In this document: positions 7,939-42,467 of the stretch, piece after piece | How the letters are laid out: every line of letters begins with the position of its first letter | Position numbering within the stretch: the first letter of the stretch is position 1 | Source: Candidatus Gottesmanbacteria bacterium RIFCSPLOWO2_01_FULL_39_12b | GTDB taxonomy: Bacteria > Patescibacteriota > Microgenomatia > 2-02-FULL-39-11 | Length of the DNA: 58,795 nt | Assembly (NCBI GenBank): GCA_001780955.1 | Contig: MFJR01000013.1 | Location: 34,506 to 93,300, forward strand | Direction: 5' to 3' | Position numbers and translations under genes: made by a program | The notes under the pieces: model-generated | The model's database searches: none | What the model saw: the letters and a program-made list of their open reading frames with translations, nothing else | Told to the model about the DNA's origin: nothing

Positions 7939-7979
7939 AACTCGCAGATAAATTTTAAAGAAAGGAGGAGATAAATATT

Positions 7980-8126: not shown

Positions 8127-8135
8127 GCTATCCTG

Positions 8136-8528: not shown

Positions 8529-8531
8529 ACC

Positions 8532-11561: not shown

Positions 11562-11566
11562 GGTAA

Positions 11567-11713: not shown

Positions 11714-11845
11714 GTTACGAGTCACCCCCTTTCTAATCTTAATTAGATCATATATTATTGCGGGTTGTCAAGAGGTATTTTGGACGTAAATAATCATATC
11801 GTATTCATATCAAATTTACCTATTTTGGCTTTAATTATTTCCCTA

Positions 11846-11874
11846 TTGACATCATGATGTGATTATGATAAGAT
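11846..11874 (+). promoter_or_regulatory. Promoter for the Fic-like gene, probably leaderless
   Basis: TTGACA (11846-11851), 17 bp, TAAGAT (11869-11874). The ATG at 11881 is 7 nt after the -10 box. Confidence 0.6.
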
Positions 11875-11880
11875 ATCTCG

Positions 11881-12816
11881 ATGCTTACAATTTCGTATAC
11901 TTTATCGCCATATTTACGGGAATCTTTGGAAAAAATAGATGATCTTCGCCGGAATATTCTTTTGGCTGTACTTACACCAAGAAACGAGTTACATCTTCGC
12001 TGGCAGGCAATGATAGAAAGAATTTACTGGTTGCTGACTTTTTCCGATACCCAGCTTAGCAAAAACGAAATAGCAAAAATCTTAAGTGAACATCTAAAGA
12101 GACAGCTGACGCCTCCACAACTGGAGGTATTGGCCTACAAAAAGGGGCTTGATTATATTGTCCAAAACTGGCTTGGTTTACAGGAACCGGTCTCTTCATC
12201 AACCGTCCTTCTTCTCTATCAGACCGCATTCTCAGGAAGGCTACGCGTCAACCAGGAGTTTTTAAAATCCTGCCTTTTGTATTTTCAGAGCAGCAGCGAG
12301 CACCCGGTTATTCAAGCGGGCCTCATCCATTTTCAAATTCTTTCTCTATCTCCCTTTACCGTGGACAACGACAAGCTGTCCCGCCTTCTTTCCTATCTGT
12401 TCCTTTACAAAGAAGGTTTTGACTGCCGGGGATTTTTGGTGTTGGAGGAATATTTCAGGCGAAACTTTACCGATTATAAACAACTTCTTAAAGAGACAGC
12501 GCGAACAGGCGCTCAAACCGCCTGGCTTGAGTACTTTGCCAAAGCAGTACAAAACAGTCTGGAAAAGACGCTCTCGGATATCGTCAAAGAAAAAGCGAGA
12601 ATGGAAATGCCTTCTTCAGTGCTCAAGTTAAATGAGAGGCAAAAGCAAATCCTTGAAATGCTGGGAAATCCGGATGCCACCATCACCAATCGCCAAGCAC
12701 AAAAATTATTTAAAATTTCGCAAATCACCGCCTCACGGGACTTGACTAAACTTGCCTCTTTAGAACTGCTATTTGCCCGTGGCCGGGGAAGATCCGTTTA
12801 CTACACCAGAGTATGA
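11881..12816 (+). CDS. Degenerate Fic-fold protein with C-terminal winged helix
   Basis: HPVIQAGLIHFQILSLSPFTVDNDKLSRLLSYLFLYKEGFDCRGFLVLEEYF matches the Fic core layout but lacks HPFxxGNGR. C-terminal TNRQAQKLFKISQITASRDLTKLASLELLFARGRGRSVYY is a wHTH. Confidence 0.7.
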   Translation: MLTISYTLSPYLRESLEKIDDLRRNILLAVLTPRNELHLRWQAMIERIYWLLTFSDTQLSKNEIAKILSEHLKRQLTPPQLEVLAYKKGLDYIVQNWLGLQEPVSSSTVLLLYQTAFSGRLRVNQEFLKSCLLYFQSSSEHPVIQAGLIHFQILSLSPFTVDNDKLSRLLSYLFLYKEGFDCRGFLVLEEYFRRNFTDYKQLLKETARTGAQTAWLEYFAKAVQNSLEKTLSDIVKEKARMEMPSSVLKLNERQKQILEMLGNPDATITNRQAQKLFKISQITASRDLTKLASLELLFARGRGRSVYYTRV

Positions 12817-16522: not shown

Positions 16523-18316
16523 ATGGTCAAGTATAAAAACTGGGTTTTTGTTGTTCTAATTCTCTTCTTCCTTCTCTTCTCCTTCTCACCCACTATCTTT
16601 GAGCTTTTTCAATCAAACAATCTGACAGACAAAAACAGGGAATTTATTCTGGAACATAACTACTACTGGCCGGACTATAATCTTTATCTGTCCAAGATAA
16701 GACAGGGTTTTGAGGGTCACCTAACTGCCAAGGAATTATATACGAGCGAATCCCACCGGGGTTCCTTGATTCAGGAATTCTATGTTGTTTTAGGTCTTTT
16801 GGGACGATATCTGAAACTGGTTCCCAACTATTCATATTTACTGGGAAGAATCATTTTTGCCCCGCTATTACTGATAGTAATACTCAAACTGGTAAAATAT
16901 TATTTCCCATCAACTTCAGTAAGGGTCAGACCTTTAGCGCCTTTAAGGTCTGACCCTATTGCTTGGCAAATCATTTCCTTTCTAATCATTATTGTCTCAG
17001 GTTCGTTCCCCAGATTCTGGTTTGACCAGAACGGCGCTCTCCAAATCGGCCGCTACATGGAGTGGTGGAGCAATATCGATTCACTGCAAAGAATTACTTT
17101 CATCCCCCATATTCTTTTTGGACAAGTCGTCTCGTTTTTTCTTTTATATCAGTTGGTAATAAGGGTCAGACCTTTAACGCCTTTAAGGTCTGACCCTGTA
17201 TTAATCTTTTATATTATATTAGGCAACCTCGTGGGCCTTGTATTCCCCCCGAGTTTGATTACGCTGAATGGAGTAATCTTATTGCTTATATTCGTAAAAT
17301 CTTATAAATCTTTAGTTTTAATAGCGGGTGACGTGAAAGAGGGGATCCCAAACGTAGCTTCACCGGCCTTGAGCCCCGCTGAGCGGGGCGATTTTGAAGC
17401 GAAGATTGGGAAACTTTCACGGCAGGACCCGCAAATTATAGTATATTTTTTATTTATTATTTTTACACTTCCCTCTCTCTTGTATATTTACCTCCTCACC
17501 AAACAGCTCCCCTGGTCGGCTCTCCTTAACTTCCACCGCACGCATCCGATGATGATACCGCTAGATCAATACGTCTTAGGCACGGGCCCAATAATCTTTT
17601 TAGGATTTTTTGGAGCAATTATTTCAATTATAAAAAAAGAAGAAAAATATCGACCCTTAATTCTCTGGCTGGTCGTTACTTTTGGCCTGGCAAGCTTTTT
17701 CTCTATCGTAAAAGAACAAAGCCCTTTAAGGTTCACCCAAACGGGATTGTTTATACCTTTGGGAATACTTGGGGCATATTTTCTAAGGCGCTTAAGTAAC
17801 TTAAGTTACTTAAGATACTTAAGTTACCTATCCATTATTATCTACATCTTTGGCAATCTCTTCATGATGAAAGTTTCGTTTGACTGGCAGGTAAGTTGGA
17901 TAGGTCAATTAATCGCAGCAACTTACCCGGCCGTTCCTTACCCGCCCCAAACCGTCTTTCCGCTCAAAGACTGGATGGCTGGAATTAGGTGGCTTAGGGA
18001 TAACACTAAGTCAGATGATGTTATCCTGGCAGAAATTACTGCCGGAAATTATATTCCGGCCTACTCTGGTAACACCGTCTATTTTGGCCAAGCCAATACG
18101 TATGATTACGAAAACAAGCAAATATTAGTAGATAAATTTTTTAAAGGAGAATTTAATCTTAATCAGGCAGAAATCTTTATCAAAAATGGGAGAATTAAAT
18201 ATGTTTTTGAAGATAAAAACCTGCCTGCCGGCGAGACAGGTCTTTCCGGTATCTACCCGTTTTTAAAACCGGTTTTTCATAATTCTATTGTCACGATCTA
18301 TAAGGTGAAATCTTAA
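16523..18316 (+). CDS. GT-C-like polytopic membrane protein (paralog family A)
   Basis: NREFILEHNYYWPDYNLYLSKIRQGFEGHLT...WWSNIDSLQRITFIPHILFGQ...AGNYIPAYSGNTVYFGQANTYDYENKQ. Closely matches ORF 43161..44828. Confidence 0.75.
   Translation: MVKYKNWVFVVLILFFLLFSFSPTIFELFQSNNLTDKNREFILEHNYYWPDYNLYLSKIRQGFEGHLTAKELYTSESHRGSLIQEFYVVLGLLGRYLKLVPNYSYLLGRIIFAPLLLIVILKLVKYYFPSTSVRVRPLAPLRSDPIAWQIISFLIIIVSGSFPRFWFDQNGALQIGRYMEWWSNIDSLQRITFIPHILFGQVVSFFLLYQLVIRVRPLTPLRSDPVLIFYIILGNLVGLVFPPSLITLNGVILLLIFVKSYKSLVLIAGDVKEGIPNVASPALSPAERGDFEAKIGKLSRQDPQIIVYFLFIIFTLPSLLYIYLLTKQLPWSALLNFHRTHPMMIPLDQYVLGTGPIIFLGFFGAIISIIKKEEKYRPLILWLVVTFGLASFFSIVKEQSPLRFTQTGLFIPLGILGAYFLRRLSNLSYLRYLSYLSIIIYIFGNLFMMKVSFDWQVSWIGQLIAATYPAVPYPPQTVFPLKDWMAGIRWLRDNTKSDDVILAEITAGNYIPAYSGNTVYFGQANTYDYENKQILVDKFFKGEFNLNQAEIFIKNGRIKYVFEDKNLPAGETGLSGIYPFLKPVFHNSIVTIYKVKS
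16923..16956. repeat. In-frame palindromic element, GGTC-ACC family
   Basis: GGGTCAGACCTTTAGCGCCTTTAAGGTCTGACCC, perfect 12-bp arms, inside ORF 16523..18316. Confidence 0.92.
17163..17196. repeat. In-frame palindromic element, second copy in the same ORF
   Basis: GGGTCAGACCTTTAACGCCTTTAAGGTCTGACCC. Confidence 0.92.
17333..17420. repeat. In-frame 88-bp MITE-like palindrome
   Basis: GTGAAAG..TCCCAA..GCTTCA..CCCCGCTgAGCGGGG..TGAAGC..TTGGGA..CTTTCAC nested arms. Confidence 0.85.
18219..18243. repeat. In-frame palindromic element
   Basis: acctgcctgccggcgagacaggtct. Related to 21505-21525. Confidence 0.6.
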
Positions 18317-19061: not shown

Positions 19062-20771
19062 CTATTTATTTACTTTATAAATGGCTAATGACTGATCCCC
19101 ATATACTTTTCTTAATACATCAATCTCATTGATATTTTTCGTCCAGCGATAAGTTAACACGTAATCTATTTTACTTTTTAGCAAAAACTCCTTCATCTTG
19201 TCTTTATTCCAATCCCCCCAAAAGAAGTTTCTTGTCTCTAATTCTTTTCTCGGATAGTCGGTTGTGGCTAAAGAATGACCCTCATAAACCCGGCGTCCCG
19301 ATATCCCTGGAAATAATGAGTTGAAAGGCCAGATCACCAGAAAGGCGTCATCGATACCTGATATTTTTTGGGCTTCTTTTAACGTCCGGTAATCATTTTT
19401 AGAGATATAGTAGAAAGCATTACGTGTGTCTACAGTCAACCGGTTTTGAATTTGACTAATATAGCACGGAATAAAAACTGTGACGACTATTGCCATAATT
19501 ACGATAGCTGCCGCCTTCCTGAATTGCGAGATGGCTTCTGTTGCCAAAACGGCAAAAAAAAGCGTTGTGGTAGCGGGTAAAAAACGCGCGTTGACAATCG
19601 ATACTGCTTTCGGAATGGGTGAGAAAAATAAACCGATTGTTAGAAGCGGAAAGACTAATACTAAAATCCGCAGCAACCGTTCAGGACTTAGCAAAACTTT
19701 GTCATTGCGATCCGCCAGTTGGCGGAGAAGCAATCCCGTCCGGACGTACCGAAACCCAACGGGACCGCCACGTCCTCCGATTCGGAGGACTCGCGATGAC
19801 ATTTTCTTTAGAGACTCCTTAAGATATAAAAGCAATCCCGCTACCGCCAAAACCATCACCGGCCCGTTGCCTAAAATATAGTCAAATACATTTATAGACA
19901 AGGTCTGGGTTTTCTCCCAGTTTGCAAGCTGGGAATAAGGAAGAACGGAGAGAATTTTTTTTAAATATAAAGCCATGGGTAATCCTCCCAAGAAAAAAAA
20001 TATGGAAGGGGTAAAAAGTAGTAAGATCTGCGAGGTAATTCTTTCTTTCCGAAAGAATAAATAAATCAGAGGAACAAAAAAGACAATCATTACCAAAAGT
20101 CCCCAATGTACCGGATCGATACTGGCCAGAATAAACCCCAACAATGGAAAAATCAGTCCCTTTATTATTCCGTAATGATTTTTCTCCTTACTTTCCCACC
20201 AGATAATCGATAATAAAAGAAAGAGTGAAATAACAGTTCTGCCCAGAAGATGGTGCGGTACGCCTGCTAACCTGTTAAAAGGTTCTCCCATATTAAACCA
20301 GTAAGTATAATACGAAAAGCTTAAATAACCATTCTCAAAAACAAGTTTTGGGAAAGCATTGCTTGAGACAAAAAGGAAAAACGCGATCATCCTCTTCATC
20401 TTGTTTTCGTTAAATATTTTTCGAATCAATAAATAAGATACCCCTAAAAATGTAATCGTAAAAATAATAATTGAGAATTGATAAGAAAACTGATGATCAA
20501 AACCTAAAAGATATAAAAGGCGGCCCGTGAATACGTTGACCCAGCCGACCAGGGTCTTCTGATGGAAATCGGAGGTATAAAGATCATATGAATAAAACCA
20601 GTTCATACTGCCCTGGGCAAACTGGGATAAATAGCTGAAATAATCTCCGGGCCAGTGCATGGTCCCTAAAAAAACACTGCCCGACGGGGTTTTGAGAGTA
20701 CCGGCAATAAAAGGCAACCAATTTAAAACGGTAAATATCAAGATTACTGTACCAACAATTATTATTTCCAT
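19062..20771 (-). CDS. GT-C-like polytopic membrane protein (paralog family A)
   Basis: TPSGSVFLGTMHWPGDYFSYLSQFAQGSMNWFYSYDLYTSDFHQKTLVGW matches the family N-terminal motif. Many TM segments. Confidence 0.72.
   Translation of the reverse strand: MEIIIVGTVILIFTVLNWLPFIAGTLKTPSGSVFLGTMHWPGDYFSYLSQFAQGSMNWFYSYDLYTSDFHQKTLVGWVNVFTGRLLYLLGFDHQFSYQFSIIIFTITFLGVSYLLIRKIFNENKMKRMIAFFLFVSSNAFPKLVFENGYLSFSYYTYWFNMGEPFNRLAGVPHHLLGRTVISLFLLLSIIWWESKEKNHYGIIKGLIFPLLGFILASIDPVHWGLLVMIVFFVPLIYLFFRKERITSQILLLFTPSIFFFLGGLPMALYLKKILSVLPYSQLANWEKTQTLSINVFDYILGNGPVMVLAVAGLLLYLKESLKKMSSRVLRIGGRGGPVGFRYVRTGLLLRQLADRNDKVLLSPERLLRILVLVFPLLTIGLFFSPIPKAVSIVNARFLPATTTLFFAVLATEAISQFRKAAAIVIMAIVVTVFIPCYISQIQNRLTVDTRNAFYYISKNDYRTLKEAQKISGIDDAFLVIWPFNSLFPGISGRRVYEGHSLATTDYPRKELETRNFFWGDWNKDKMKEFLLKSKIDYVLTYRWTKNINEIDVLRKVYGDQSLAIYKVNK
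19701..19800. repeat. In-frame 100-bp MITE-like element
   Basis: GTCATTGCGA...TCGCGATGAC termini, with internal TCCGCCAGTTGGCGGA and GTCCTCCGATTCGGAGGAC hairpins. Confidence 0.85.
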
Positions 20772-22418: not shown

Positions 22419-24020
22419 TTATTTTACTTCCCCTACCACAACATCCCCACTCCGAAATACTTCCTCAATTCCATTAACCTTCCCCTTTTTTACAAACTGA
22501 TCATATCCTATATGATCCAGACCAAAAATTATATACTGGACTGCCCACTTTTTTAACTGTTCTGTAATTTTATCGTCCCCGATTTGCCGTAGATATATCG
22601 AGTCAACTGCCTGTTTTACTTTCCCATAGTCTAGCCGTGAATCTAGCCTGCCTAAAACTACCTGATTGTCAGTAAATGCCGGAAGTAGATTCGAGATGTT
22701 TTCACCTGCCAGAATAGTCACCGATGGTCTGCTGTTTTTATTTATGAAATTAATAGCATCCATCAATTTATCAGGCAACAGCACATTGTAATAAGAGGGA
22801 GTCGGAGTATCATAAGTTTGACTTAGAGAAAATATAAAACCGCTTGACAGTGAAATAATTAAAAAAAGTGCTATCACTGCTTGAAACATTTTTGCCGTCT
22901 CCTTTTTCGGCTGAAAGTTTTCCCAAAAAAATACCGTCAGAATTGAACAGGGAATAAAAACGTTAAGACTGAACAACCTGCTCATGGAATACGGTAACTG
23001 CCTGCCCACAAACGGAAAACTCGCAACCGGTAAAAACGCCCATAAAGCTAAAAGGATATGATTAAAGCGGAATTTCCTGATGTAAACAAAAGACAACCCT
23101 GCGGTAAGAAGTAACGGTCCTAACGAGGCAAGATAAGATATATAAGAAACAAGATAGCGACCTACTTTCTCGCCGTAATAATAATATTGCCAGGGATTAC
23201 CGTAGTTGAAGAGGTAAAAATTGTAAAGCATAAGGGGCAGAACACTTAAGAAGATTATTATAAATTCTTTATAAGGGGACCCCTTGCGTAGGCAAACGGA
23301 AACTATACCCAAAACAGCCAGCATAAATGTCATAAGAGCAGGATTAACCAGCATAATAATAATTGAGACAACAACGATTTTAACGATTATACGAGTTTCG
23401 CCCCTCCCGTCATTGCGATCCGCCAGCTGGCGGAGTGGCAATCTCATCAATAAAATTAATAAACAGTTAAAAAGAGTATTAGCCAATCCGTGATGTAAAG
23501 GGATCATAAATTTTTGAAGCGTGTAAAATGATTGCCAAAAATCGATTATGGGCAGTAATTTTATCGCTCCGTATGTCTTTGAAACATAAGGAAATGAACT
23601 GGAAAAAAGCATGAGTAAGAGTGCCAGCTTTCTGGATTTTGATGAATCAAGAATAGTTTTTATTAAATACCAGATACTCAAAATCCAGGTTAAAATAAAT
23701 ACGTTTCTGCCCAGATGATAAGTGATGTCGATGGGAAGATTAACTAATCTGCTAAGCATTCCTAAGGTGGGAAACAGGGGTTGAAAAAGAACCTGTTTTT
23801 CAATCTCGGGTATATATTTGGACCGGATCAGTATTTTTCCGTTCCAGCCATCTCTCATCCAGGAAAGGAACTGATAGTAATCAAAATAATAACCGGTAGC
23901 TCCGTAAAATCTAGAACCCGCCGGTGGTTTCACATAACTTTTAATCAGGGGATAATCCAAGAGAAAAAATACTAAGAGTATGAACGATACGGAAAGGATT
24001 ATTGCAAAATGCTTCCTCAT
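22419..24020 (-). CDS. GT-C-like polytopic membrane protein (paralog family A)
   Basis: PPAGSRFYGATGYYFDYYQFLSWMRDGWNGKILIRSKYIPE...MIPLHHGLANTLF. Confidence 0.72.
   Translation of the reverse strand: MRKHFAIILSVSFILLVFFLLDYPLIKSYVKPPAGSRFYGATGYYFDYYQFLSWMRDGWNGKILIRSKYIPEIEKQVLFQPLFPTLGMLSRLVNLPIDITYHLGRNVFILTWILSIWYLIKTILDSSKSRKLALLLMLFSSSFPYVSKTYGAIKLLPIIDFWQSFYTLQKFMIPLHHGLANTLFNCLLILLMRLPLRQLADRNDGRGETRIIVKIVVVSIIIMLVNPALMTFMLAVLGIVSVCLRKGSPYKEFIIIFLSVLPLMLYNFYLFNYGNPWQYYYYGEKVGRYLVSYISYLASLGPLLLTAGLSFVYIRKFRFNHILLALWAFLPVASFPFVGRQLPYSMSRLFSLNVFIPCSILTVFFWENFQPKKETAKMFQAVIALFLIISLSSGFIFSLSQTYDTPTPSYYNVLLPDKLMDAINFINKNSRPSVTILAGENISNLLPAFTDNQVVLGRLDSRLDYGKVKQAVDSIYLRQIGDDKITEQLKKWAVQYIIFGLDHIGYDQFVKKGKVNGIEEVFRSGDVVVGEVK
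23409..23450. repeat. In-frame element with TCCGCCAGCTGGCGGA core
   Basis: gtcattgcgatccgccagctggcggagtggcaatctcatc inside ORF 22419..24020 (RQLAD). Confidence 0.88.
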
Positions 24021-24030: not shown

Positions 24031-25497
24031 TCATTTTCTCACCAAAAAACTACTGTCAGATGCGGGGATAAAATTTTCCCTGATATATTTAGCTTGTAAA
24101 CCCGGCAGAACGTTTAATCTTTCAACATTCCCCACATGAACAAAATTTGTTTGCCTTTTTTTCATGTCTGTCTCCAAATCAGGAAATTTAAAACGAATAG
24201 ATTCTTCATACTGACCGTATGGAAGGCAGCAAAAATAATATCCATCAGGAAACAGAATCGTCTCACCGGTCAGGTCAAAAATTGGCGAATCTTTAGGTAT
24301 ATTTTTGATCAGATTTTCTAATTTGGTGAGACTGACTTTATTCGTCCATTGCATTTTCTTTTTATAGAGAGTCTCGCCTATAAAACCCAGATAAATAATA
24401 AATACCAGGAAAAGTAATCCTTTCGTGCTTTTTTGTTTTTCCAAAAAAAGAACGGAAATAAACTCGGCAAAGAATATGGCAATAAAGGGAGCAACAGGAA
24501 TAAGATATTGTGAGTGCTTAAGGGGATAAACGTAAACAAAGGCATATAGATTTATCCAAAAAGAGGAGATTATTAAAAATTCTCTGGTAGATTTTTCCCC
24601 GTCATTATCCTTAAATATGGATACAAAGCGGAAAATGGCATAAAATGAGGCGATCAGATAGATGAGGAGATTCATCACGTATGGTGGGCTAAATCCCGGC
24701 AATCCGTAAAAAGTATCATTAGGATAAAAGAATAAATCCGGCCGCATATAAAACTTTGCTCCTAAGGTAGCCGTTACGTCAGAGGCCATTTTGGTCATAT
24801 TATAAAAAGCCAGTTTTGGCTTCCCCCAGACAACAATCAAAACCAGAATCGTAATGACGGGCAACAGAAAACCTGCCCCAAACTGTACCAGCTCCCTTAG
24901 GACTCCCTTTTTGAAGTTTCGAAATAATCTGTAAATAAAAACCAATACCACGGGGATACAGAAAAAAAGCGTTTTGGGAACAAATCCCAAGCTTAAACTA
25001 TAAAAAAACCCTGAGATATATAACAGCCATCCTCTCTTTTTTTCGAAACTTTTGATCAAGAGGTATAATCCAAGCAGTGATAAAAATACAGACAGTAAGT
25101 CCGGACGTATTTCCAGCATTTTATCATTTGGCAGTGGTATTAAAACAAATATCAGGGCGCTTAATAAACCCGTTTGCCGATTGCGTAATTTTCTCCCTAA
25201 AAGTATGATCACGCCCGCAGTTGCCAGATAGATACCGGAGATAAATGTCCGGGCCATGATAATCGTACCCACCGACCGGCCAAAAACAGCAAAAAGTCCG
25301 GCTATTGGATAGAGAAAAAATGGCGGAATCAGATAAAAGAAATTTACATAAGGACGCTGCCCAAGAAAAAAACTATATCCCCAATGCAGATGGGTATACT
25401 CGTCGACGTCAAAGTACCGGACTAAACCTAGCCGAAACCTCAAATACAAGAAGTACAGAAGCGATATTCCTAATATTAAATAGATAATCTTTTTCAT
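24031..25497 (-). CDS. GT39/PMT-like membrane glycosyltransferase
   Basis: GLVRYFDVDEYTHLHWGYSFFLGQRPYVNFFYLIPPFFLYPIAG with acidic motif DVDE. Paralog of ORF 27279..28862. Confidence 0.8.
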   Translation of the reverse strand: MKKIIYLILGISLLYFLYLRFRLGLVRYFDVDEYTHLHWGYSFFLGQRPYVNFFYLIPPFFLYPIAGLFAVFGRSVGTIIMARTFISGIYLATAGVIILLGRKLRNRQTGLLSALIFVLIPLPNDKMLEIRPDLLSVFLSLLGLYLLIKSFEKKRGWLLYISGFFYSLSLGFVPKTLFFCIPVVLVFIYRLFRNFKKGVLRELVQFGAGFLLPVITILVLIVVWGKPKLAFYNMTKMASDVTATLGAKFYMRPDLFFYPNDTFYGLPGFSPPYVMNLLIYLIASFYAIFRFVSIFKDNDGEKSTREFLIISSFWINLYAFVYVYPLKHSQYLIPVAPFIAIFFAEFISVLFLEKQKSTKGLLFLVFIIYLGFIGETLYKKKMQWTNKVSLTKLENLIKNIPKDSPIFDLTGETILFPDGYYFCCLPYGQYEESIRFKFPDLETDMKKRQTNFVHVGNVERLNVLPGLQAKYIRENFIPASDSSFLVRK

Positions 25498-27278: not shown

Positions 27279-28862
27279 TTGATAGATATGATCCGTATCC
27301 TGAGAAAAATACACCCCCAGCATCTCCTTCTGCTTGGAAGTATTCTTCTTTTTCTTTTCTTTGCTTTTTGGCGGTATAAGCTTGGACTAGTACGATATTT
27401 TGATAACGATGAATTTATGTATCCCAACTGGAGCTATCACATGTCGATAGGATACCGACCCTATCTGGATTTTCTTCTGATGGTGCCCCCCCTATTTCCT
27501 CTTGTACTTATTCCCCTTTTTTCTTTCTGGCATGGCACAGATCCTCTTATTATGGGACGAATTGTAGCATTTATTATTTCATTCTTTCTTGCCGGCATAG
27601 CTATGCTCCTTTTTTGGCAGATGCGGCGGTCCTGGCTTTTTATCCTAGTGGGACTTCTCTTTTTTACTCTCCCGATGCCATCAGATAAGCTTATGGAAAT
27701 ACGTCCTGATAATCTTGCCCTTCTTTTCTTTTTGTTGGGGTTGAGTATACAACTGAAATGGATGGAGAAACTCCCGCCTCAGCGGGAGGGACGATACTGT
27801 AATTCCTCATTTTTCGGAAACAGTATCGGGACAAAACCTTTCTATGCTTTTTGTATCGGAGTTTTTTATATGCTATCTTCTTTAACACTTCAGAAAATGT
27901 TCCCGTATATTGCTATTGCCCTTATTATTGCATATATCAGAGATATTACTCATTTAAAACGCCCCCAATTCCCATGGTCGATTGTATATATGATAGGAGG
28001 AGCTTTTCTCGTATCAATACCATTTCTCTATTGGACCTTTTCATCTGGGAATCCGCAGATTGTTTTCTACTCCCTGTTTACCCTCCCTTTGGAACATGCT
28101 CATATGTATACGAACAATAAACCTCCTCCTCTTTTTTACTTCCAACCCAACAATATCTATTATGGGCAGTGGGGATATGGTCTGGGATTTATCGTAAACA
28201 CTCTTCTTTGGATCAGTGGAGGAATTATCGGAATACTGCGTATTTTTTATGCATTATTACCGCGAACAAAGAATAAATTACAGGAACTTCTTATTGGACT
28301 TTTGACTGTTACCGCTATCGGGTTGTATTTTATCTCATCCATTCAATTCCCCCAGTATCTTCTTCCAGCATCTGTGTGGATCGTGTGGAATATTACCGAT
28401 CTTTTTTATCTTTTATGGAATCTGAGGGGGAATAAATCATTTCGATTTCTCTTTAGCATTCTCTATTGTATGGCATGTATTTTTCTCTATAAAACATTTT
28501 TCTTTGTGCATCTGCCTAAGTTTTCTTGGCCTAATACCGACCAGTTACAATATATCAGAGACATTCATACCTCCATTCCTTATTCAGAATATATTTTGGA
28601 TCTTGATGGGAGAACATTGTATTATCGCTATCCCCATTATGTGTGCTGTCTTCCCTATGCAGAGTTTCGTAGATTTTTGTCTGTCTCGATACCATCTATA
28701 AAAGAAGCACTCATCCGGACAAAAACAAAATACATCAACGGATTTCCGGCTCGGATCAATTTTCTTTCACTCCATGATACAATTTTTATCCATACCAACT
28801 TCGTACAAAAAAATGAGACGTTTTATACTCTCAAGTCTGAAATCACACCGACAGGGTTATAA
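27279..28862 (+). CDS. GT39/PMT-like membrane glycosyltransferase
   Basis: GLVRYFDNDEFMYPNWSYHMSIGYRPYLDFLLMVPPLFPLVLIPLF. Paralog of ORF 24031..25497. Confidence 0.8.
   Translation: MIDMIRILRKIHPQHLLLLGSILLFLFFAFWRYKLGLVRYFDNDEFMYPNWSYHMSIGYRPYLDFLLMVPPLFPLVLIPLFSFWHGTDPLIMGRIVAFIISFFLAGIAMLLFWQMRRSWLFILVGLLFFTLPMPSDKLMEIRPDNLALLFFLLGLSIQLKWMEKLPPQREGRYCNSSFFGNSIGTKPFYAFCIGVFYMLSSLTLQKMFPYIAIALIIAYIRDITHLKRPQFPWSIVYMIGGAFLVSIPFLYWTFSSGNPQIVFYSLFTLPLEHAHMYTNNKPPPLFYFQPNNIYYGQWGYGLGFIVNTLLWISGGIIGILRIFYALLPRTKNKLQELLIGLLTVTAIGLYFISSIQFPQYLLPASVWIVWNITDLFYLLWNLRGNKSFRFLFSILYCMACIFLYKTFFFVHLPKFSWPNTDQLQYIRDIHTSIPYSEYILDLDGRTLYYRYPHYVCCLPYAEFRRFLSVSIPSIKEALIRTKTKYINGFPARINFLSLHDTIFIHTNFVQKNETFYTLKSEITPTGL
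27771..27834. repeat. In-frame double hairpin element
   Basis: CTCCCGCctcaGCGGGAG then CGATACTGT...ACAGTATCGGGAC inside ORF 27279..28862. Confidence 0.85.
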
Positions 28863-30059
28863 GAAAAATATAAAACGGAATATCCCACTATAAAAATAAA
28901 AAGAGAAGATTAAAAAATAAAGAAACAGACCATATTCTACCTTCCATCCCCTCGTCTCCCGAAAAAGTAAAAAAAGAACGAAAGAAGTTATATAGTATCT
29001 CCACTCCATAAACCAGATGGGGATCAAAAAAATTGCTGTAATAGGATAGAGAAGATACCCTGCTTTTTCTTTCAATTTCACCACAAGAAGGAACAAAACT
29101 GCCATCACCAAGACGGAAAAAAATATAAGTTTCCGTAAGGTATCTCCCGTAAAATAGAGGATAAGGGCATTATGGAGAAAAAATGGTGCCTGATTGTAAA
29201 GATGAGTATTGGTAAAAAGTTTGTAGTAGATAAAAAATACCGGAACCAATAGTATTATATATACTCTATATTTCCACAATAGCTTCACCATATCGTGTCC
29301 GTACGAAAGCAATAGTGGCAAAAAAAGAAATGGAAAAAGAAAAATAATGATAAATATATTGCTTTGATTGAGTAGATTAAGATACATAAGTTGCCTATCT
29401 CCAATAGTCATAGCCCCATTCAGTATCAAAAATTCACAAAGAAGAAGAGGCCCTAAAACAAATGTATATGTCCGGCTAAGATGGATTATAAGATTCGTTC
29501 TTGATATATGCCAGCCAAATTTTTTGATGTAAATAAAAAGAAACAAAAAAATAAGCCAGACGATGTTATTTTGCCTGGCAAGGATACTGACCGAAGCTAT
29601 AATTCCAGAAGCTAAATAGTGTTTTTTATAGAGAGTGAACAAGGAAAGCAGGATAAAAAGAAGAGAAAATATATCCGTATATATAAGGGAAAAGTAAGGA
29701 AAAATAAGCGGGAAAAAACTATAGTGTAACGTTTTTACTAATGCGTTCTGTCGATCTATCTCTCGTGCCGTAAGATAAAAAATGGGGATAGTCAACACGT
29801 TTATGAGAAATCCTATCAATCTTATATCCTGAAAGCGCGATACATGTAATATTCTTGCTCCTGCTGCGAGTATTGCGTGGTATCCAGGTATCATGGAAAG
29901 GAGAGGATCGGGACGAAAATCACCACTCAAAAATCGCACTATCTGGCGATAGTGATAGTTCTCATCAATCATAAGAGAATGGTCTCTGATAAGTATGAAA
30001 GCACCTGTGTGGATAAGAAAGATGGTGAGGAAAACGAGGAGAAATATTCGCTTATTCAT
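28857..30059 (-). CDS. DIE2/ALG10-like alpha-1,2-glucosyltransferase family protein (bacterial)
   Basis: MIDENYHYRQIVRFLSGDFRPDPLLSMIPGYHAI, SLIYTDIFSLLFILLSLFTLY, LARQNNIVWLIF, LILNGAMTIGDR and EWRYYITSFVLF line up in order with eukaryotic ALG10 signature segments. Confidence 0.7.
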   Translation of the reverse strand: MNKRIFLLVFLTIFLIHTGAFILIRDHSLMIDENYHYRQIVRFLSGDFRPDPLLSMIPGYHAILAAGARILHVSRFQDIRLIGFLINVLTIPIFYLTAREIDRQNALVKTLHYSFFPLIFPYFSLIYTDIFSLLFILLSLFTLYKKHYLASGIIASVSILARQNNIVWLIFLFLFIYIKKFGWHISRTNLIIHLSRTYTFVLGPLLLCEFLILNGAMTIGDRQLMYLNLLNQSNIFIIIFLFPFLFLPLLLSYGHDMVKLLWKYRVYIILLVPVFFIYYKLFTNTHLYNQAPFFLHNALILYFTGDTLRKLIFFSVLVMAVLFLLVVKLKEKAGYLLYPITAIFLIPIWFMEWRYYITSFVLFLLFRETRGWKVEYGLFLYFLIFSFYFYSGIFRFIFFL

Positions 30060-31527: not shown

Positions 31528-32576
31528 TAGTATTTTCTATATTTCTTATAAAATAAGATAGTTTTTTTTATCCCTTCCTCAAGATTTGTTTTGGGCTCCC
31601 ACCCGTAAGTCTTCTTTATTTTCTCGATTGAGGCGATATAATCTCCCACCTCAATCTTTTTGCGGTCTACAGGATACGGCTTCAAGACAATCTCTTTACA
31701 AGGTTGGACCTTGTTTTGGACCGAACTGATAACCTCATAAGTTTTCCTGACAAAGTCTATTAACGATATCGGTGTTCCGCCGAGATTGTAAGCCTCTCCC
31801 CAGCCTTTTTCTGCCATTGCTACCATAAGTATAGCTTCAACAACATCGTCAACATAATTGACGTCCCGTATTTGCACGCCTTTTCCATAAAGTTCTATCT
31901 GTTCTCCATCTAAAATTTTTCTGATGAACCAGTTAAGCACTCCTTGTCTCTCATGCTTCATCTGATGCCTCGGACCGTAAGTATTGGTCATGCGAAGAGA
32001 GACTGTTTTTATGCCATAAACAGCATGGTACATCAAATGATATTTTTCGGAAGCAATGTTATTGATTCCGTTTATGTCCGTGGGCTCCTGGGGATGATTT
32101 TCATCAACCGGTAAATATTTTGCCTTGCCATACTGATTTCTAGTACCGGCAAAAATAATGCGTGCTTTGGGATTGAATTTTCTGACTGATTCCAAAAGTG
32201 ATAACTGAGCTCGACAGTTTATCTCCAAGTCAGTCATAGGATCAACCATGCTGTCAACATGGGAAAGAGTCCCGGCAAGATTGAAGATAAACTCTTTATC
32301 TTTGACAAGTTTTTCTATTTTTTTGGTATCTCTAATATCGGAAAAATCGACCGTAACTTTCTCTTTTATTGATTCAATATTGAAAAGATTTCCTCCATAA
32401 GCGGCAATCATGGAATCAACCAGAGTCACCCGGGCTCCGTATGAAACTAACCGGATGGCAAGATTGCTTCCGATAAACCCTAAGCCTCCGGTGATAAGTA
32501 TTTCTTTGTTTTTAAAAAAATTTCCCATTCCCATTAAATAAATATTATACTCTTCATTAGTAATCGAGTTCCCCAA
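31521..32576 (-). CDS. NAD-dependent epimerase/dehydratase (extended SDR)
   Basis: ILITGGLGFIGSNLAIRLVSYGARVTLVDS...NEYHPQEP-like VDENHPQEP...YHLMYHAVYGIKTVSLRMTNTYGPR. Initiation is probably downstream of the ORF start. Confidence 0.93.
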   Translation of the reverse strand: MGNSITNEEYNIYLMGMGNFFKNKEILITGGLGFIGSNLAIRLVSYGARVTLVDSMIAAYGGNLFNIESIKEKVTVDFSDIRDTKKIEKLVKDKEFIFNLAGTLSHVDSMVDPMTDLEINCRAQLSLLESVRKFNPKARIIFAGTRNQYGKAKYLPVDENHPQEPTDINGINNIASEKYHLMYHAVYGIKTVSLRMTNTYGPRHQMKHERQGVLNWFIRKILDGEQIELYGKGVQIRDVNYVDDVVEAILMVAMAEKGWGEAYNLGGTPISLIDFVRKTYEVISSVQNKVQPCKEIVLKPYPVDRKKIEVGDYIASIEKIKKTYGWEPKTNLEEGIKKTILFYKKYRKYYW

Positions 32577-33253
32577 AAAATAATCAGGTCTCTTATTACC
32601 GGCAGTACTATTTTCAAATTCATTACTCCTATCCCCCCCAAGGCACCTCTGGGATAATGCGGTATTTCTACTTCACTAATTTTAAATCCATTCCTGATTG
32701 TTTTAATGCATAATTCTGTATCGATAAAAGCAGAACTGGTCACAAGGGAAATCTGACCCAAGATTGATCTAGGAAATAATTTGGTAGAATTAACATCTCT
32801 AAGGTTAATCTGAAATAATATTCTCATAAGTCTATTATAACTTCTGGATTGAAGCCTTCTTAGCCAACTGTCCATCCGCTTTTTTCGCAGTCCAATGATA
32901 AAATCATGAGTTTTCAGTTGAGGAATTAATAACTTTATGACATCTGCTCTTATCTGTCTGTCTCCTGGAATAGAAAAAATATAATCATACCTGGCTGAGT
33001 AATATAACTCTTTGATGGTAACTCCAAAGCCCAGATTTTTTAAGTGATATTTGAACTTAATCCGTTTATTTTTCTGAGATTCTCTTTCAATTTTTTTATA
33101 AGTTTTGTCTGTCGAACCATCATCTATTACCACTATTTCATACTGATTTGAATATTCTTCTCCTATTTGTACCGCCTGTGCCAATACTTTCTCAATAGTA
33201 ACCTCATCATTAAATGCCGGTATAATAATAGAAAGAGAGGAAATTTTGTCCAT
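32534..33253 (-). CDS. GT2 family glycosyltransferase (DPM1-like)
   Basis: LSIIIPAFNDEVTIEKVLAQ...YEIVVIDDGSTDKTYKKIER...YIFSIPGDRQI. Confidence 0.92.
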   Translation of the reverse strand: MDKISSLSIIIPAFNDEVTIEKVLAQAVQIGEEYSNQYEIVVIDDGSTDKTYKKIERESQKNKRIKFKYHLKNLGFGVTIKELYYSARYDYIFSIPGDRQIRADVIKLLIPQLKTHDFIIGLRKKRMDSWLRRLQSRSYNRLMRILFQINLRDVNSTKLFPRSILGQISLVTSSAFIDTELCIKTIRNGFKISEVEIPHYPRGALGGIGVMNLKIVLPVIRDLIIFWGTRLLMKSIIFI

Positions 33254-33958
33254 TTACGGTAAGAATTTTCCCGGCGTATCCATCACTACTCTAGCCGGAA
33301 CTCCCAAGGCTAACTTTCGATCAGGTATATCTTTGGTCACCACGGCTCCAGCCCCCACTACCGCATATCTCCCTACTACAACTGCCGGCAAAAGAACGGC
33401 TCCACCCCCAATGAGTGCTCCTTTTTTTACCCTGGGTCCTTTATGAGTGATATGTATCGCTCTCCCGAATGAATTGTCGTTACTCGTTACCACGTGAGTA
33501 CTGATAAAGACGTCATCTTCTACAACCATCTCGCCCGTCAGATGAGTCAAATCAAGGATCTTACAATTTTTCCCGACCTGTGTATGATAATTAATCGTTA
33601 CGTGCCGGGCAATCAGAGTCTTACTACCTATGACACACTCTTCCCGAATATGAGCTCCGTCCCCGATAAGACAGTTTTCTCCGATAGTTGTACCTCTAAA
33701 TATTACTGCATTGGTACCTATATATGTTTTTTTACCGATGTGAAGAGGTGGCAACTTTGTATTCAATTTACGGGTAATCGCTTTTGAAGAAACCGGTAAT
33801 TTACCTAGCACCGCCCCATCTTCAATCACACACCCGTCATCAATGATCGTATCTTTATAGACAACAATATTGTTTTTGAAAATGCAATTATTTCCTATTT
33901 TCACACTCTCACCGAGAATACAATTGTGGCCAAATACAGCACGTTTTTTATTTGACAT
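33254..33958 (-). CDS. Left-handed beta-helix acyltransferase (hexapeptide repeat)
   Basis: Repeated hexapeptides: FGHNCILGESVKIGNNCIFKNNIVVYKDTIIDDGCVIEDGAVLG...VGAGAVVTKDIPDRKLALGVPARVV. Confidence 0.92.
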   Translation of the reverse strand: MSNKKRAVFGHNCILGESVKIGNNCIFKNNIVVYKDTIIDDGCVIEDGAVLGKLPVSSKAITRKLNTKLPPLHIGKKTYIGTNAVIFRGTTIGENCLIGDGAHIREECVIGSKTLIARHVTINYHTQVGKNCKILDLTHLTGEMVVEDDVFISTHVVTSNDNSFGRAIHITHKGPRVKKGALIGGGAVLLPAVVVGRYAVVGAGAVVTKDIPDRKLALGVPARVVMDTPGKFLP

Positions 33959-34748
33959 AAGAAGTTTTTTTCTTTCGCCGGTAATAGGTTACCCAGGATG
34001 AAAGTTTCTTCTCCTCAGATGAAAAAAGGTTCCGAAATATCACATCTGCCGTATCAACCCCAATAAAATCGAGAAGTTCAAAAGGACCCATGGGGTGTTT
34101 GAGAGATTTTTTGATAATGGTGTCAACAGTAACTTCAGAAATACCCCCACGGATAACTAGGTCAACTGCAGATAGTAGAGCCGAAAAAAGGATAGTGTTG
34201 GCAACAAAACCTGGAATATCCTTTACAACTTCGTACTCATACCCGAGCTGATCTAAAAAAAGGAGAAGTTTCGCAAGAAGTTGTTTTTGAAATTTATCTG
34301 CCGGAATTACTTCCAAAAAAGAGATGGCTTGGGGGGGATTGAAAAAATGTAGACCAATAAGCTGTTCTTCAAGATGACCTTTCTTTGCCAGTTCACCAAT
34401 AGAGAACGATGAGGTAGTTGTACCGACAATAGTCTTTTTATTGATATGTTTTTTTAGCTTTTGATATACATTTACTTTCTCTTGAAAATCCTCTGAAATC
34501 GCCTCGATAATTACGTCGCAGTGAGAAAGATCTGAATACCTCAGAACATAGGTTATATCAAGAGGAATCTGCTTGGGAAATTTTCGTTTCTGATAGTCTA
34601 AAAACTCTTTTTTGAGTCTTGGAATACGCTCTTTTCTCCGCACGTAAATTTTAGGACGTATTCTCTTTTTCAAAAAAAGCTTGATAAGTCCTTTGGCAAT
34701 TTGCCCGCTTCCCACGATTCCTACCGAGATATGTAACACCTTTTTCAT
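33948..34748 (-). CDS. 3-hydroxyacyl-CoA dehydrogenase-like protein
   Basis: ISVGIVGSGQIAKGLIKLF (Rossmann), DVIIEAISEDFQEKVNVYQKL, LIGLHFFNPP, VVKDIPGFVANTILFSALLSAVDLV, HPMGPFELLDFIGVDTA. Confidence 0.9.
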   Translation of the reverse strand: MKKVLHISVGIVGSGQIAKGLIKLFLKKRIRPKIYVRRKERIPRLKKEFLDYQKRKFPKQIPLDITYVLRYSDLSHCDVIIEAISEDFQEKVNVYQKLKKHINKKTIVGTTTSSFSIGELAKKGHLEEQLIGLHFFNPPQAISFLEVIPADKFQKQLLAKLLLFLDQLGYEYEVVKDIPGFVANTILFSALLSAVDLVIRGGISEVTVDTIIKKSLKHPMGPFELLDFIGVDTADVIFRNLFSSEEKKLSSWVTYYRRKKKTSYVK

Positions 34749-36176: not shown

Positions 36177-36905
36177 ATGACTCCAAAGTTCTCCGTTATA
36201 TTACCGGCCAGAAATGAGGCAGCGAATTTAGGAAAATTAATATCTTCTTTAATCTCAAAATATAAAGGTTTAATAAATGAAATTATTATCGTTGAAGACT
36301 GTTCTACCGATAAAACTCTTGAAATAGCTTTGCTGCTACAGACAAGATATCCAAAATATATCAAAATAATAAAACGTAAATCCCCGCCGGGTGTGGGTTT
36401 AGCCTTACGGGATGGTATGAAAAACATTTCTCATAAAAGTCATTATGTATTATTCATGGACTCTGACTTTCTAATAAACATCCCTGATATTGCTAAAATG
36501 ATTGCCAAAATTCCTCAATATGACGGTGTAGTCGGTTCCCGTTTTATGAGTGCAAACAGCTTGCTTAATTACCCTAAACTAAAATTCATCGCTAACCGCT
36601 CATATCACTTTTTAACCCGTCTGTTTCTCGGGATAAAACACACTGATTTAACCAATAATTTTAAACTTTATCAGACTGAGTTGGTTCACAAAATTTATCC
36701 CTTCCTTACCTCTTCTGACTTTTCTGTGAACTCTGAAATTGGTTATTATCCGGTTTTACTGGGAGCAAAAATTGGGGAAGTGCCCGTAAAATGGCAAGAA
36801 AGATCAAAACAGATGGGTGTCTCCAAATTTAAACTTTTTCTTGTTGGTCCGTCTTACCTAAATGTTTTTTTAAAACTGATATTGATGAAAATCAAACTTT
36901 TATGA
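36177..36905 (+). CDS. GT2 family glycosyltransferase
   Basis: FSVILPARNEAANLGKLISSLIS...EIIIVEDCSTDKTLEIA...YVLFMDSDFLI. Confidence 0.92.
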   Translation: MTPKFSVILPARNEAANLGKLISSLISKYKGLINEIIIVEDCSTDKTLEIALLLQTRYPKYIKIIKRKSPPGVGLALRDGMKNISHKSHYVLFMDSDFLINIPDIAKMIAKIPQYDGVVGSRFMSANSLLNYPKLKFIANRSYHFLTRLFLGIKHTDLTNNFKLYQTELVHKIYPFLTSSDFSVNSEIGYYPVLLGAKIGEVPVKWQERSKQMGVSKFKLFLVGPSYLNVFLKLILMKIKLL

Positions 36906-38515
36906 ATAAATCCTTATACCGTTTTATTTTATATTTTCTAATCGCTAATATCTTTTTAGTTTTAGCTTACCTTCCGCTTATGGTCAAAAACGCCCGCGTT
37001 CCTTCAAACAGGTTTAACCCTTTGGTTTCTACATGGGCCCATGATTATTATCTTTATCTATCTGTAATCACTCAGGGTAAAAACGGGTTCTGGTTATATC
37101 ACGATCCCTACACTACAGAACCGACAAAATCAGGGATATTTTATATCTTTTATATTGGAGCAGGCAAAATTGCGTCAATCTTTAATCTTTCATCGCCTGT
37201 TACCTACCATCTCTCAAGTATTATCTCGGCAGAACTGTTTATCATACTAACCTACGTTTTAGCTTCACAAATTGTCGGACCGAAAACTGGTTTTTGGGCC
37301 GGTATTATGGCGTTATCCGGTACTTTCGCTCCCCTAATTTTTTTTGAGAAGACGGCCGCCTTTCCGATTGGAGTAAACTTTGACGCTTTGGAAAGGCTCA
37401 TAGACATTCCCCATTATATTTTTGGACAAGCCATGTTACTGGCATCAGTCATTAGCCTTATTTATTTTTTTAGAAGCTCAAAGCTTGAATATATAATTCA
37501 AACAGCCATATTTTCATTCATCGGGGGAATAATTTTACCTTCAAGCCTTCTACCTCTAATTTTTGCTCTGCCTCTAATTTTGATTATCCTGTATAGAAAT
37601 ACTTATTTAGGTATTTTAAACAGAAAGTTTGTGCTTAACATAACGTCTGGAATCATTATAACAATGCTTTCCAGTGCTTTGGCTGCGTTATTGGTTAAGC
37701 TCCAGGAAAAGCAAGGTTTTCCCTGGAATATCTGGACTGATTGGAATATAGCCAGATGGAATTTGTACGAGCCGCACTTTAACAGCTATCTTTTCTTATC
37801 TTTTGGAATATTGCCGATACTTGCAATCCCTTCAATGATTAAATTCATTAAATCCAAAACAATTGAAAAAAACTATATAGTCATTTGGGCACTTCTGCCT
37901 TATCTTCTTTTACCGTTTGTAGATTTATTACAAATCCCAAAAATCAGGCTTATCCAAGAAGCGCCATTCCTTCCTTTTGCTATTTTAGCAAGTACTACTA
38001 TCTTTTCTACAATATCTTTTCAAAGGAAAAATATTTTTAGGCTGATTCTAATAATATTTTTCCTGTCAACGACGTTACCTGTTTCCCTGTCACTTCTTAC
38101 AACCCGTATTAATCAATCCAGAAAAGAATCATTTTCCAGGTCAAATAACCATATTTATATTCCTAATCAAGAATATTCTGCAATATCGTATATTGCGCAA
38201 AACCTGCCAATAAATTCTATTATCCTGGCAAATCAAAGAATGGGAAGTATCATTCCCGCTTTTACTCCAGTGGTTAGTTTCTTAGGCCATCAAAACCAGA
38301 CGAAAAACTTTTCTCAAAAACTCTTGGAAACGGAGGCTTTTTATAAAGACTTACAAAACGAGGTTCAAACCAAAAACTTTCTTATTACCAATAAAATTAA
38401 TTATGTCTACTTTGGATTAGATGAAAACGAGTTAGTCTCTGAAAAATTCAGTTTTAGTTTTCTCAAACCAATTTTTAACAACCAAAATATTATTCTTTAC
38501 CAGGTTAATCTTTAA
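36902..38515 (+). CDS. GT-C-like polytopic membrane protein (paralog family A)
   Basis: VPSNRFNPLVSTWAHDYYLYLSVITQGKNGFWLYHDPYTTEPTKSGIFYIFYIGAGKIASIF. Its start overlaps the upstream GT2 gene. Confidence 0.75.
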   Translation: MNKSLYRFILYFLIANIFLVLAYLPLMVKNARVPSNRFNPLVSTWAHDYYLYLSVITQGKNGFWLYHDPYTTEPTKSGIFYIFYIGAGKIASIFNLSSPVTYHLSSIISAELFIILTYVLASQIVGPKTGFWAGIMALSGTFAPLIFFEKTAAFPIGVNFDALERLIDIPHYIFGQAMLLASVISLIYFFRSSKLEYIIQTAIFSFIGGIILPSSLLPLIFALPLILIILYRNTYLGILNRKFVLNITSGIIITMLSSALAALLVKLQEKQGFPWNIWTDWNIARWNLYEPHFNSYLFLSFGILPILAIPSMIKFIKSKTIEKNYIVIWALLPYLLLPFVDLLQIPKIRLIQEAPFLPFAILASTTIFSTISFQRKNIFRLILIIFFLSTTLPVSLSLLTTRINQSRKESFSRSNNHIYIPNQEYSAISYIAQNLPINSIILANQRMGSIIPAFTPVVSFLGHQNQTKNFSQKLLETEAFYKDLQNEVQTKNFLITNKINYVYFGLDENELVSEKFSFSFLKPIFNNQNIILYQVNL

Positions 38516-40782: not shown

Positions 40783-40835
40783 TATAGCAAATACAAAAAA
40801 TTATTGTAAGATATTACTTGTTGACTAAAATTTCC

Positions 40836-42467
40836 ATGAATAAGTTGCTGCTAATATTAACATCAAAAACTACTTTTTTTATATTAACCACACTTTTAAT
40901 ACTGGGACTCAATCTCTTTCCTCTTATTTCTCATATTAAACATGCACCGCCTGGTCGCACCTTCGGCCTCATCCATAATAACGTCCAGGATTTTTATTTC
41001 TACCAATCACTTATGAATGAGGGGGCAAACGGAAGCTGGCTGACGTATGACCCCTATACTTCTGAAAACCATAAGCCTTCTGTTATTTTTTCATATTTTC
41101 TGGCTTTAGGTAAAGTCAGCAGTTTATTAGGACTTTCTAATGCTGTTACTTATCATTTATTAAGAATTATTCTTGGGTTTTTATTTCTTCTTGCTTCTTA
41201 CTTCTTAATTCTAAATTTCTCATCATTCCATCGTAAACTTACCTATCTATTATTTCTCTTTGCCGCACCCCTTATGAACGGAGATAAACCTTTTATGAAC
41301 TGGTGGACGGGGGTAGATCCGATCAGACGCGTGGCGTATCTTCCTCATCACATGGCCGGCAGTTTACTTCTGGTACTGTCAATAATTTTTCTTATTAAAT
41401 TCTTTAAATCAGGGCATAACAAATATCTTTTATATGCAATAGTAATTGCTCCGATACTTGCCTTTATCCATACTCCTAGTCTATTTATTTTACTTTTAAT
41501 TCTCCCTCCGACGTTGGGTTTACAGATAGCCTTAAAACACCTCGCGGGTGGCAGGCTGATCCCGCTTAGCGGGAGAAGCCATGACTCCCGCGAGGTGGAG
41601 AAACCGATAATTGGCTTACTTGTTTATTGTTTAATTGGGTTTTTTTTACTTATCTTGATGGTTTCCCTAACCAAAACCGGCTTTCCCTGGAGTCAGTATA
41701 TCGATTGGGAAAAAAGATTGCAATTCCCTTTAGATAAAGAACTTATTGGCGCTTTAGGCTATCTTTTCCCCTTCGCTCTTATTGGCGGAATTAAAGCGGT
41801 CTTATCTAAAAGGTTTGATCTGATTCTTATATTTTGCTGGCTTTTTATACCAATTCTTTTTATTCCTTTTGCACCAAGACTTAATATTTCAAACATCCGT
41901 TTGATTCAAGGGACACCGTATTTACCATTGGCAATTTTAGCAGTGATGGGCATAATAACAATCGAAAAATTCTTGAAAAAATTTTCAAGGTTACTGTGTT
42001 ACTGTGTTACTGTGTTACTGGCGTTACTATTTATAATCTTCACCTACCCTACTCTCTCCTGGAGCCTCAAAGATCAAATCAGGGAATACTGGCCGATTTT
42101 TGGCAACGTTTATCTTGATAACAGGCTTAAGTATGCTTTTGAGTTTATCAATAAAAATTTTCCTGCTCATACCGTAACCCTCGCCACGTTTTACACCGGT
42201 AACTATTTACCGGCTTCTACTAATACAGTCAGCTTTATAGGACACTTCGGATATACATATAATATTGATGAAAAACAAACCTCGGTACAAAAATTCTTTG
42301 AAAATAAAATGCTGGAAAAAGAGGCTAAAGAATATCTTCTGAACAACAAAATTACTCTTGTCTTTCAAGGCCCTGAAGAAAAGCCTATATATAAAGACAA
42401 ACTTTACCCAGAAATCCTAAAACCTGTCTACGATAAGGAAGAAGTCACTTTGTACGTTTTAAAGTAA
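40836..42467 (+). CDS. GT-C-like polytopic membrane protein (paralog family A)
   Basis: PPGRTFGLIHNNVQDFYFYQSLMNEGANGSWLTYDPYTSENHKPSVIFSYFLALGKVSSLL...TGNYLPASTNTVSFIGHFGYTYNIDEKQ. Confidence 0.75.
   Translation: MNKLLLILTSKTTFFILTTLLILGLNLFPLISHIKHAPPGRTFGLIHNNVQDFYFYQSLMNEGANGSWLTYDPYTSENHKPSVIFSYFLALGKVSSLLGLSNAVTYHLLRIILGFLFLLASYFLILNFSSFHRKLTYLLFLFAAPLMNGDKPFMNWWTGVDPIRRVAYLPHHMAGSLLLVLSIIFLIKFFKSGHNKYLLYAIVIAPILAFIHTPSLFILLLILPPTLGLQIALKHLAGGRLIPLSGRSHDSREVEKPIIGLLVYCLIGFFLLILMVSLTKTGFPWSQYIDWEKRLQFPLDKELIGALGYLFPFALIGGIKAVLSKRFDLILIFCWLFIPILFIPFAPRLNISNIRLIQGTPYLPLAILAVMGIITIEKFLKKFSRLLCYCVTVLLALLFIIFTYPTLSWSLKDQIREYWPIFGNVYLDNRLKYAFEFINKNFPAHTVTLATFYTGNYLPASTNTVSFIGHFGYTYNIDEKQTSVQKFFENKMLEKEAKEYLLNNKITLVFQGPEEKPIYKDKLYPEILKPVYDKEEVTLYVLK
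41538..41597. repeat. In-frame 60-bp nested palindrome
   Basis: CACCTCGCGGG/CCCGCGAGGTG perfect 11-bp arms with inner CCCGCTTAGCGGG, inside ORF 40836..42467. Confidence 0.9.
41990..42020 (+). repeat. 8-bp tandem repeat in CDS
   Basis: gttactgt x about 3.9 in ORF 40836..42467. Confidence 0.9.

Follow-up and report, generated by a model that had tools for sequence, protein, structure and literature searches.

Results

The glycan locus and its ALG10-family gene

The window, meaning the whole 58,795-nucleotide stretch of DNA analyzed here, belongs to a 1.27-Mb Candidatus Gottesmanbacteria genome that is 84% complete. An open reading frame on the minus strand at 28857..30059 is intact from ATG to stop and encodes a 400-residue protein, P0001; stops occur throughout the plus strand across 28857-30059. 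The surrounding genes are listed below, with their conservation in L029, a Patescibacteria contig from another genus of the same family.

24031..25497, minus strand: PMT_2-type GT-C protein, 488 aa; conserved in L029
25514..26086, minus strand: GNAT acetyltransferase; conserved in L029
26083..27249, minus strand: DegT/DnrJ/EryC1 sugar aminotransferase; conserved in L029 (256/401)
27279..28862, plus strand: 527-aa membrane protein with no Pfam match; convergent with the ALG10-family gene, 6-base overlap
28857..30059, minus strand: ALG10-family (PF04922) GT-C glycosyltransferase P0001, 400 aa; D32/E33 putative catalytic residues in the first external loop
30250..31527, minus strand: PMT_2-type GT-C glycosyltransferase, 425 aa; directly upstream and co-directional; reciprocal best match and same neighbor in L029
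31521..32576, minus strand: NDP-sugar 4,6-dehydratase/epimerase family protein; upstream in L029 too (246/333 identical)
32534..33253, minus strand: GT2 glycosyltransferase, 239 aa
34749..35519, minus strand: GT2 glycosyltransferase, 256 aa; conserved in L029 (172/252)

The locus also holds hexapeptide transferase and methyltransferase genes. The membrane protein that converges on the P0001 gene is related to the PMT_2 protein at 24031-25497 and to a neighbor of the ALG10-family gene in L012. The dehydratase, aminotransferase and GNAT acetyltransferase together suggest the synthesis of an N-acetylated amino-deoxy sugar. L029 shares 13 reciprocal best matches with the window, and the dehydratase, PMT_2 and ALG10-family genes keep their order and strand between the two. 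P0001 and its L029 counterpart are only 37% identical, so this arrangement has been kept for long, which argues for a role of P0001 in the glycan. A 3-hydroxyacyl-CoA dehydrogenase-family protein at 33948-34748 (minus strand) is an odd companion in a Patescibacteria glycan locus.

P0001 is a member of the ALG10 family

Known ALG10 members perform the final step in assembly of the sugar chain used in eukaryotic protein glycosylation. A sequence-only reading had likened P0001 to these enzymes and proposed comparison with the family profile. P0001 matches PF04922 (DIE2_ALG10, Pfam) with E = 2.6e-24; its score of 86.7 bits exceeds the curated cut-off of 27, and the assignment is thus not confined to other GT-C families. 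In the best segment, residues 29-180 align with profile positions 4-167. The PMT_2 (PF13231) cut-off is passed too, with 31.7 bits versus 26.1, and the ALG10 score is the higher of the two. NCBIfam contains no model matching P0001, and a sequence search of the PDB with P0001 and the family profile as queries gave no match and hence no ALG10 template.

Alignment A4 contains 40 prokaryotic homologues. All 40 match PF04922 (best 9.1e-39), which places the resemblance between P0001 and ALG10 beyond chance; two match PMT_2 and one matches PIG-V. The best match per family member scores 39-134 bits and mostly covers both ends of the profile. PF04922 matches of other GT-C proteins are weak and below threshold, scoring 17-26 bits in the middle of the profile, and several weak matches in other Patescibacteria were rejected as members because they are PIG-V/PMT_2-type proteins.

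The eukaryotic comparison used sequences of yeast DIE2 and Arabidopsis ALG10 from outside the collections, which contain no eukaryotic sequences; both were checked against Pfam, where they match PF04922 over the full profile at 383 and 443 bits, respectively. A profile built from prokaryotes only scores Arabidopsis ALG10 at 148 bits and yeast ALG10 at 87, while the highest score of any other GT-C protein in the loci is 50. Identity between prokaryotic and eukaryotic proteins is 21-26% (22-26% for the eukaryotic sequences against P0001 or the best prokaryote), almost as high as the 27% between yeast and Arabidopsis, and prokaryotic members are 22-41% identical to P0001. The nearest sequence families outside ALG10 are PIG-V/Gpi18 (PF04188) and the bacterial PMT_2 GT-C proteins, both of which score lower on the family profile. 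Two maximum-likelihood trees from different alignments, holding the two eukaryotic sequences and leaving out typical PMT_2 proteins, unite the prokaryotic set with eukaryotic ALG10 and separate it from a PIG-V-like outgroup clade at 100/100.

These data bear on whether P0001 is an ordinary bacterial PMT_2/GT-C transferase whose likeness to ALG10 is local only. Its PMT_2 score and the sub-threshold PF04922 resemblance seen in other GT-C proteins fit that explanation. The gap between those weak matches and the scores of family members, the 38 of 40 members without a PMT_2 match, the ranking of eukaryotic ALG10 above every other GT-C protein tested with the prokaryote-only profile, and the tree topology all speak against it. 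It is already largely refuted and very improbable. On the sequence evidence, P0001 is a true homologue of eukaryotic ALG10.

Conserved loop motifs and predicted structure

The 40 homologues were aligned with the two Pfam-checked eukaryotic sequences. The motifs listed by the sequence-only reading are real and align with yeast DIE2 and Arabidopsis ALG10; the loop motifs DE..H, PG, YTD/E, RQxNxxW and ExRYY are present. Residues common to P0001 and both eukaryotic proteins are D32, E33, H36, Q39, P58, G59, R80, P117, Y127, T128, D129, R162, Q163, N165, W168, N214, P248, E352, R354 and Y355. Thirty-three positions are kept in 85% or more of the prokaryotic sequences, and about 20 of the 33, including DE, R80, YTD, RQxNxxW and ExRY, are identical in both eukaryotes. 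Eukaryotic ALG10/DIE2 (CAZy GT59, PF04922) and P0001 are further alike in the N/G..GD motif and the GT-C fold, the latter predicted for P0001.

The two groups differ in length, in a late loop and in genetic setting. P0001 has about 400 residues and lies in a surface-glycan locus, whereas eukaryotic ALG10 has about 510-525 residues. The late loop reads HP(F/Y)LLADNRHY in eukaryotic ALG10 and HPxNQ...LRN in prokaryotes, and the DNRHY loop is absent from the prokaryotic set in the joint alignment. The prokaryotic loop instead carries an N-(x)n-N signature, with N289 in 98% and N297 in 90% of the sequences. N234 is invariant among prokaryotes and is Q in both eukaryotes. The late loop that differs from DNRHY may read the acceptor, and for this reason the acceptors of the prokaryotic and eukaryotic enzymes probably differ. 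A search for the STT3 oligosaccharyltransferase (PF02516) found none in the window's genome at its 84% completeness. Because the DNRHY loop is replaced and no STT3 was found, P0001 is placed in a prokaryotic clade of the ALG10 family and is not eukaryotic ALG10 itself.

An AlphaFold2 model of P0001 computed with the 40-sequence alignment has a pLDDT of 95.5 and a pTM of 0.93. The model and hydropathy together give roughly 12-13 membrane helices, an approximate count, versus 13 for ALG10. Helix 1 runs to residue 24, and the next helix begins with D32/E33, at the place expected for the GT-C catalytic acid. Foldseek comparison with the PDB returned ArnT, AftB, ALG12, STT3/AglB, PMT, PIG-U, ALG9, GPI14 and ALG3, with probabilities mostly near 1. 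These high-probability matches are GT-C enzymes or structural relatives, and on this basis the predicted model confirms the GT-C class. The structural comparison proposed by the sequence-only reading yielded a confident GT-C model, with fold matches that are only moderate (TM values up to about 0.5, all E values 0.001 or higher) and with no ALG10 structure among the PDB matches from sequence and fold searches.

Distribution in prokaryotes

PF04922 scores above its cut-off in 2/380 genomes sampled over the phylum, 9/374 genomes of the class and 7/15 genomes of the organism's own family. The corresponding counts are 15/118 for Rhodanobacteraceae, 2/237 for the phylum of the Omnitrophota carriers, 2/237 for the phylum of the Woesearchaeota carrier and 0/14 for control genomes. 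Relatives occur in Patescibacteria, Omnitrophota, Rhodanobacteraceae, Myxococcota, Chloroflexota and other groups, and in DPANN archaea. The occurrence of an ALG10-like protein in a bacterial surface-glycan locus had been called unusual. This is half right: the family is rare overall, as the count for the phylum shows, but it recurs in the organism's own family and in the Rhodanobacteraceae, and a few DPANN archaea carry it as well.

A pattern scan of 85,462 species genomes found at least 31 loci. This count is a lower bound because the scan used two strict peptide patterns, which were derived from a six-sequence alignment since a ten-sequence alignment was too diverse. The carriers are Patescibacteria, Omnitrophota, Spirochaetes, Anaerolineales, SAR324, Gemmatimonadetes, Acidobacteria, Verrucomicrobia, Bacteroidetes, Archangium lansinium, Dyella, Luteibacter, Rudaea cellulosilytica and a Woesearchaeota archaeon. 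Some records describe the same protein: those on Candidatus Gottesmanbacteria contigs L035 and L030 coincide with the own-family homologues L013 and L015, and homologue L011 is the protein on L029. A scan of viral_contigs returned no relative, so no phage or viral copy was found there, and BFVD fold matches were weak. A plasmid search with a Dyella member returned nothing.

Some members have unusual forms or settings. An Omnitrophota genome (L034) carries six ALG10-family genes at 924-2216 and 6214-12703 on the plus strand, five of them in tandem; the tandem looks like an expansion, possibly with different sugar specificities. Two copies are adjacent in Dyella sp. C11. The Gemmatimonadetes and SAR324 members (L041, L040 and L059) are about 560-585 aa long and have an N-terminal extension.

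The distribution also bears on whether the genes came recently from eukaryotes or reflect eukaryotic DNA contaminating the metagenome bins. Patchiness across phyla speaks for such an explanation. Against it, the members share only 22-41% identity with P0001 and are spread over the whole tree, their contigs carry bacterial genes, synteny is conserved, GC is flat, and the family is present in the named strains Archangium lansinium, Dyella dinghuensis and Rudaea cellulosilytica. Recent transfer is already refuted, and the explanation as a whole is scarcely credible. An ancient transfer is possible in either direction (AU p = 0.24).

Putative donor synthase genes near ALG10-family members

Two Peribacteria and Archangium lansinium each have an ALG5-like GT2 gene directly beside their ALG10-family gene.

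L032, 11240-11953: ALG5-like GT2 neighbor, Peribacteria (the same locus as L002)
L050, 11276-11995: ALG5-like GT2 neighbor, Peribacteria
L042, 8818-9702: ALG5-like GT2 neighbor, Archangium lansinium

The scores were obtained with provisional sequences of yeast ALG5 and of DPM1 as queries. The two Peribacteria genes score 97-105 bits to ALG5 and 28-39 to DPM1. The Archangium gene scores 86 bits to ALG5 with no DPM1 match; it is divergently oriented and 122 bases away. In the loci, three genes resemble ALG5 at more than 80 bits, and every one of them adjoins an ALG10-family gene. By sequence similarity, these neighbors lend suggestive support to a Glc-P-lipid donor in those three genomes.

No clear ALG5-type gene is present in the window. 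The GT2 gene most like ALG5 there, at 36177-36905, was considered as a donor synthase and rejected, as it scores 51 bits, contains no ALG5 hallmark motif and lies 6 kb away. Elsewhere in the window's genome, a GT2-GtrA fusion protein is encoded at 685-1887 on the plus strand of L110. This protein is a candidate polyprenyl-phosphate-sugar synthase and flippase.

Proposed function of P0001

ALG10 and its kin take Dol-P-Glc as donor, and their conserved motifs lie in the same external loops (PMC6801728). A synthase for the polyprenyl-P-sugar, a flippase and a GT-C transferase working at the outer face make up the bacterial three-component systems (PMC11127046). By analogy with the family, P0001 would use a lipid-phosphate donor in an outward-facing active site and perform an inverting transfer. 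P0001 is probably an outward-facing GT-C hexose transferase of the plasma membrane with a polyprenyl-phosphate carrier as donor and the glycan of the locus as acceptor. D32, in the DE motif after helix 1, would serve as the catalytic base. One hexose would be taken from the polyprenyl-phosphate carrier and added to a lipid-linked or surface glycan made by the locus, and P0001 would thereby perform the third step of the synthase, flippase and transferase logic. The proposed logic resembles GtrA-GtrB-Gtr and GT136 periplasmic glycosylation (PMC11127046), and the GT2-GtrA fusion in the genome of P0001 is a further likeness. Unlike in those systems, the GT-C component here belongs to the ALG10 family, and the putative components are not in one operon.

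The surface glycan of the locus is our guess for the acceptor. The conserved gene arrangement favors this assignment, and the Rhodanobacteraceae genes (Dyella, Luteibacter and Rudaea; L051, L052, L055 and L057) count against a glycan-locus role because they lie outside obvious glycan clusters. Glucose as the donor sugar is likewise a guess, to which we give about even chances. Membership in the ALG10 family and the ALG5-like neighbors in other genomes make glucose plausible; the presence of dehydratase, aminotransferase and acetyltransferase genes in the locus counts against plain glucose and speaks for an amino-deoxy sugar.

P0001 could instead transfer the amino-deoxy sugar made by these three enzymes, whose genes accompany the ALG10-family gene in L029 too, with 47-74% identity. 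However, the sugar could serve any of the several glycosyltransferases that the locus encodes, and where the family adjoins a single donor gene, that gene is ALG5-like. Transfer of this sugar by P0001 is on the unlikely side, and the sugar may be the substrate of P0001 or of a neighboring enzyme.

The sequence-only reading had named the eukaryotic activity, addition of the terminal alpha-1,2-glucose. As a functional ALG10, P0001 would attach this glucose to a lipid-linked oligosaccharide destined for protein, in a bacterial N-glycosylation-like pathway. Family membership, the conserved catalytic motifs and the ALG5-like neighbors in three genomes are compatible with such a role. Counting against it are the missing DNRHY loop, the failure to find STT3 in the 84% complete genome, neighbors that are mostly surface-glycan genes, and sugar genes that resemble an amino-deoxy sugar pathway. 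The activity is not established, and the pathway is improbable. The outward-facing hexose transferase acting on the glycan of the locus is the reading we prefer.

Origin of ALG10

The luminal glycosyltransferases of N-glycosylation, Alg10 included, were described as unique to eukaryotes, with prokaryotic relatives that are only distant and PMT-like, and a link between Alg10 and Gpi18 was proposed (Lombard 2016, PMC4973528). This link fits the present data because PIG-V-like proteins are the nearest outsiders. An open-literature search, with subscription journals and the UniProt, InterPro and CAZy annotations outside its scope, found no report of prokaryotic ALG10; automatic annotation in these databases may already list such proteins.

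The suggestion that P0001 could bear on the origin of ALG10 is a fair point that the trees do not settle. In both trees the eukaryotic sequences share a single long branch, which is placed within the prokaryotic set. A bacterial ancestor of eukaryotic ALG10 was put to the AU test on one of the trees without a decision: keeping all prokaryotes together costs only 4.65 log-likelihood units (p = 0.24), in a test limited by long branches and only two eukaryotic sequences. The phylogeny proposed by the sequence-only reading thus joins the prokaryotic and eukaryotic proteins and leaves the origin undecided. The origin of ALG10 is newly testable, not answered. We tentatively suggest, with the odds somewhat against it, that ALG10 is an ancient prokaryotic family for glucosylation outside the cytoplasm, and that it had an ALG5-type donor synthase as its partner before eukaryotes acquired it from bacteria. 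If true, bacteria are the source of one luminal N-glycosylation step.

Prokaryotic ALG10 homologues that have diverged nearly as far as the yeast and plant proteins are the missing outgroup and source candidates for this luminal step. They also make the mechanism more accessible: Dyella, Rudaea and Archangium are carriers among named strains, those of the Rhodanobacteraceae lend themselves to genetics, and the short 400-aa enzymes are easier to study than ER proteins.

Other membrane proteins of the window

A 629-aa membrane protein at 45531-47420 (plus strand) has a sub-threshold match to Alg6_Alg8 (PF03155, E = 1.1e-4, 21.8 versus 25 bits). Its Alg6_Alg8-like part is fused to an NPCBM carbohydrate-binding-type domain, and it is the second luminal-glucosyltransferase-like protein of the region. 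Six further membrane proteins of 530-600 aa have no Pfam match (16523-18316, 19062-20771, 22419-24020, 36902-38515, 40818-42467 and 43161-44828). A phmmer comparison relates them to one another, they also have relatives in L029 and L035, and they are probably an undescribed GT-C-like family.
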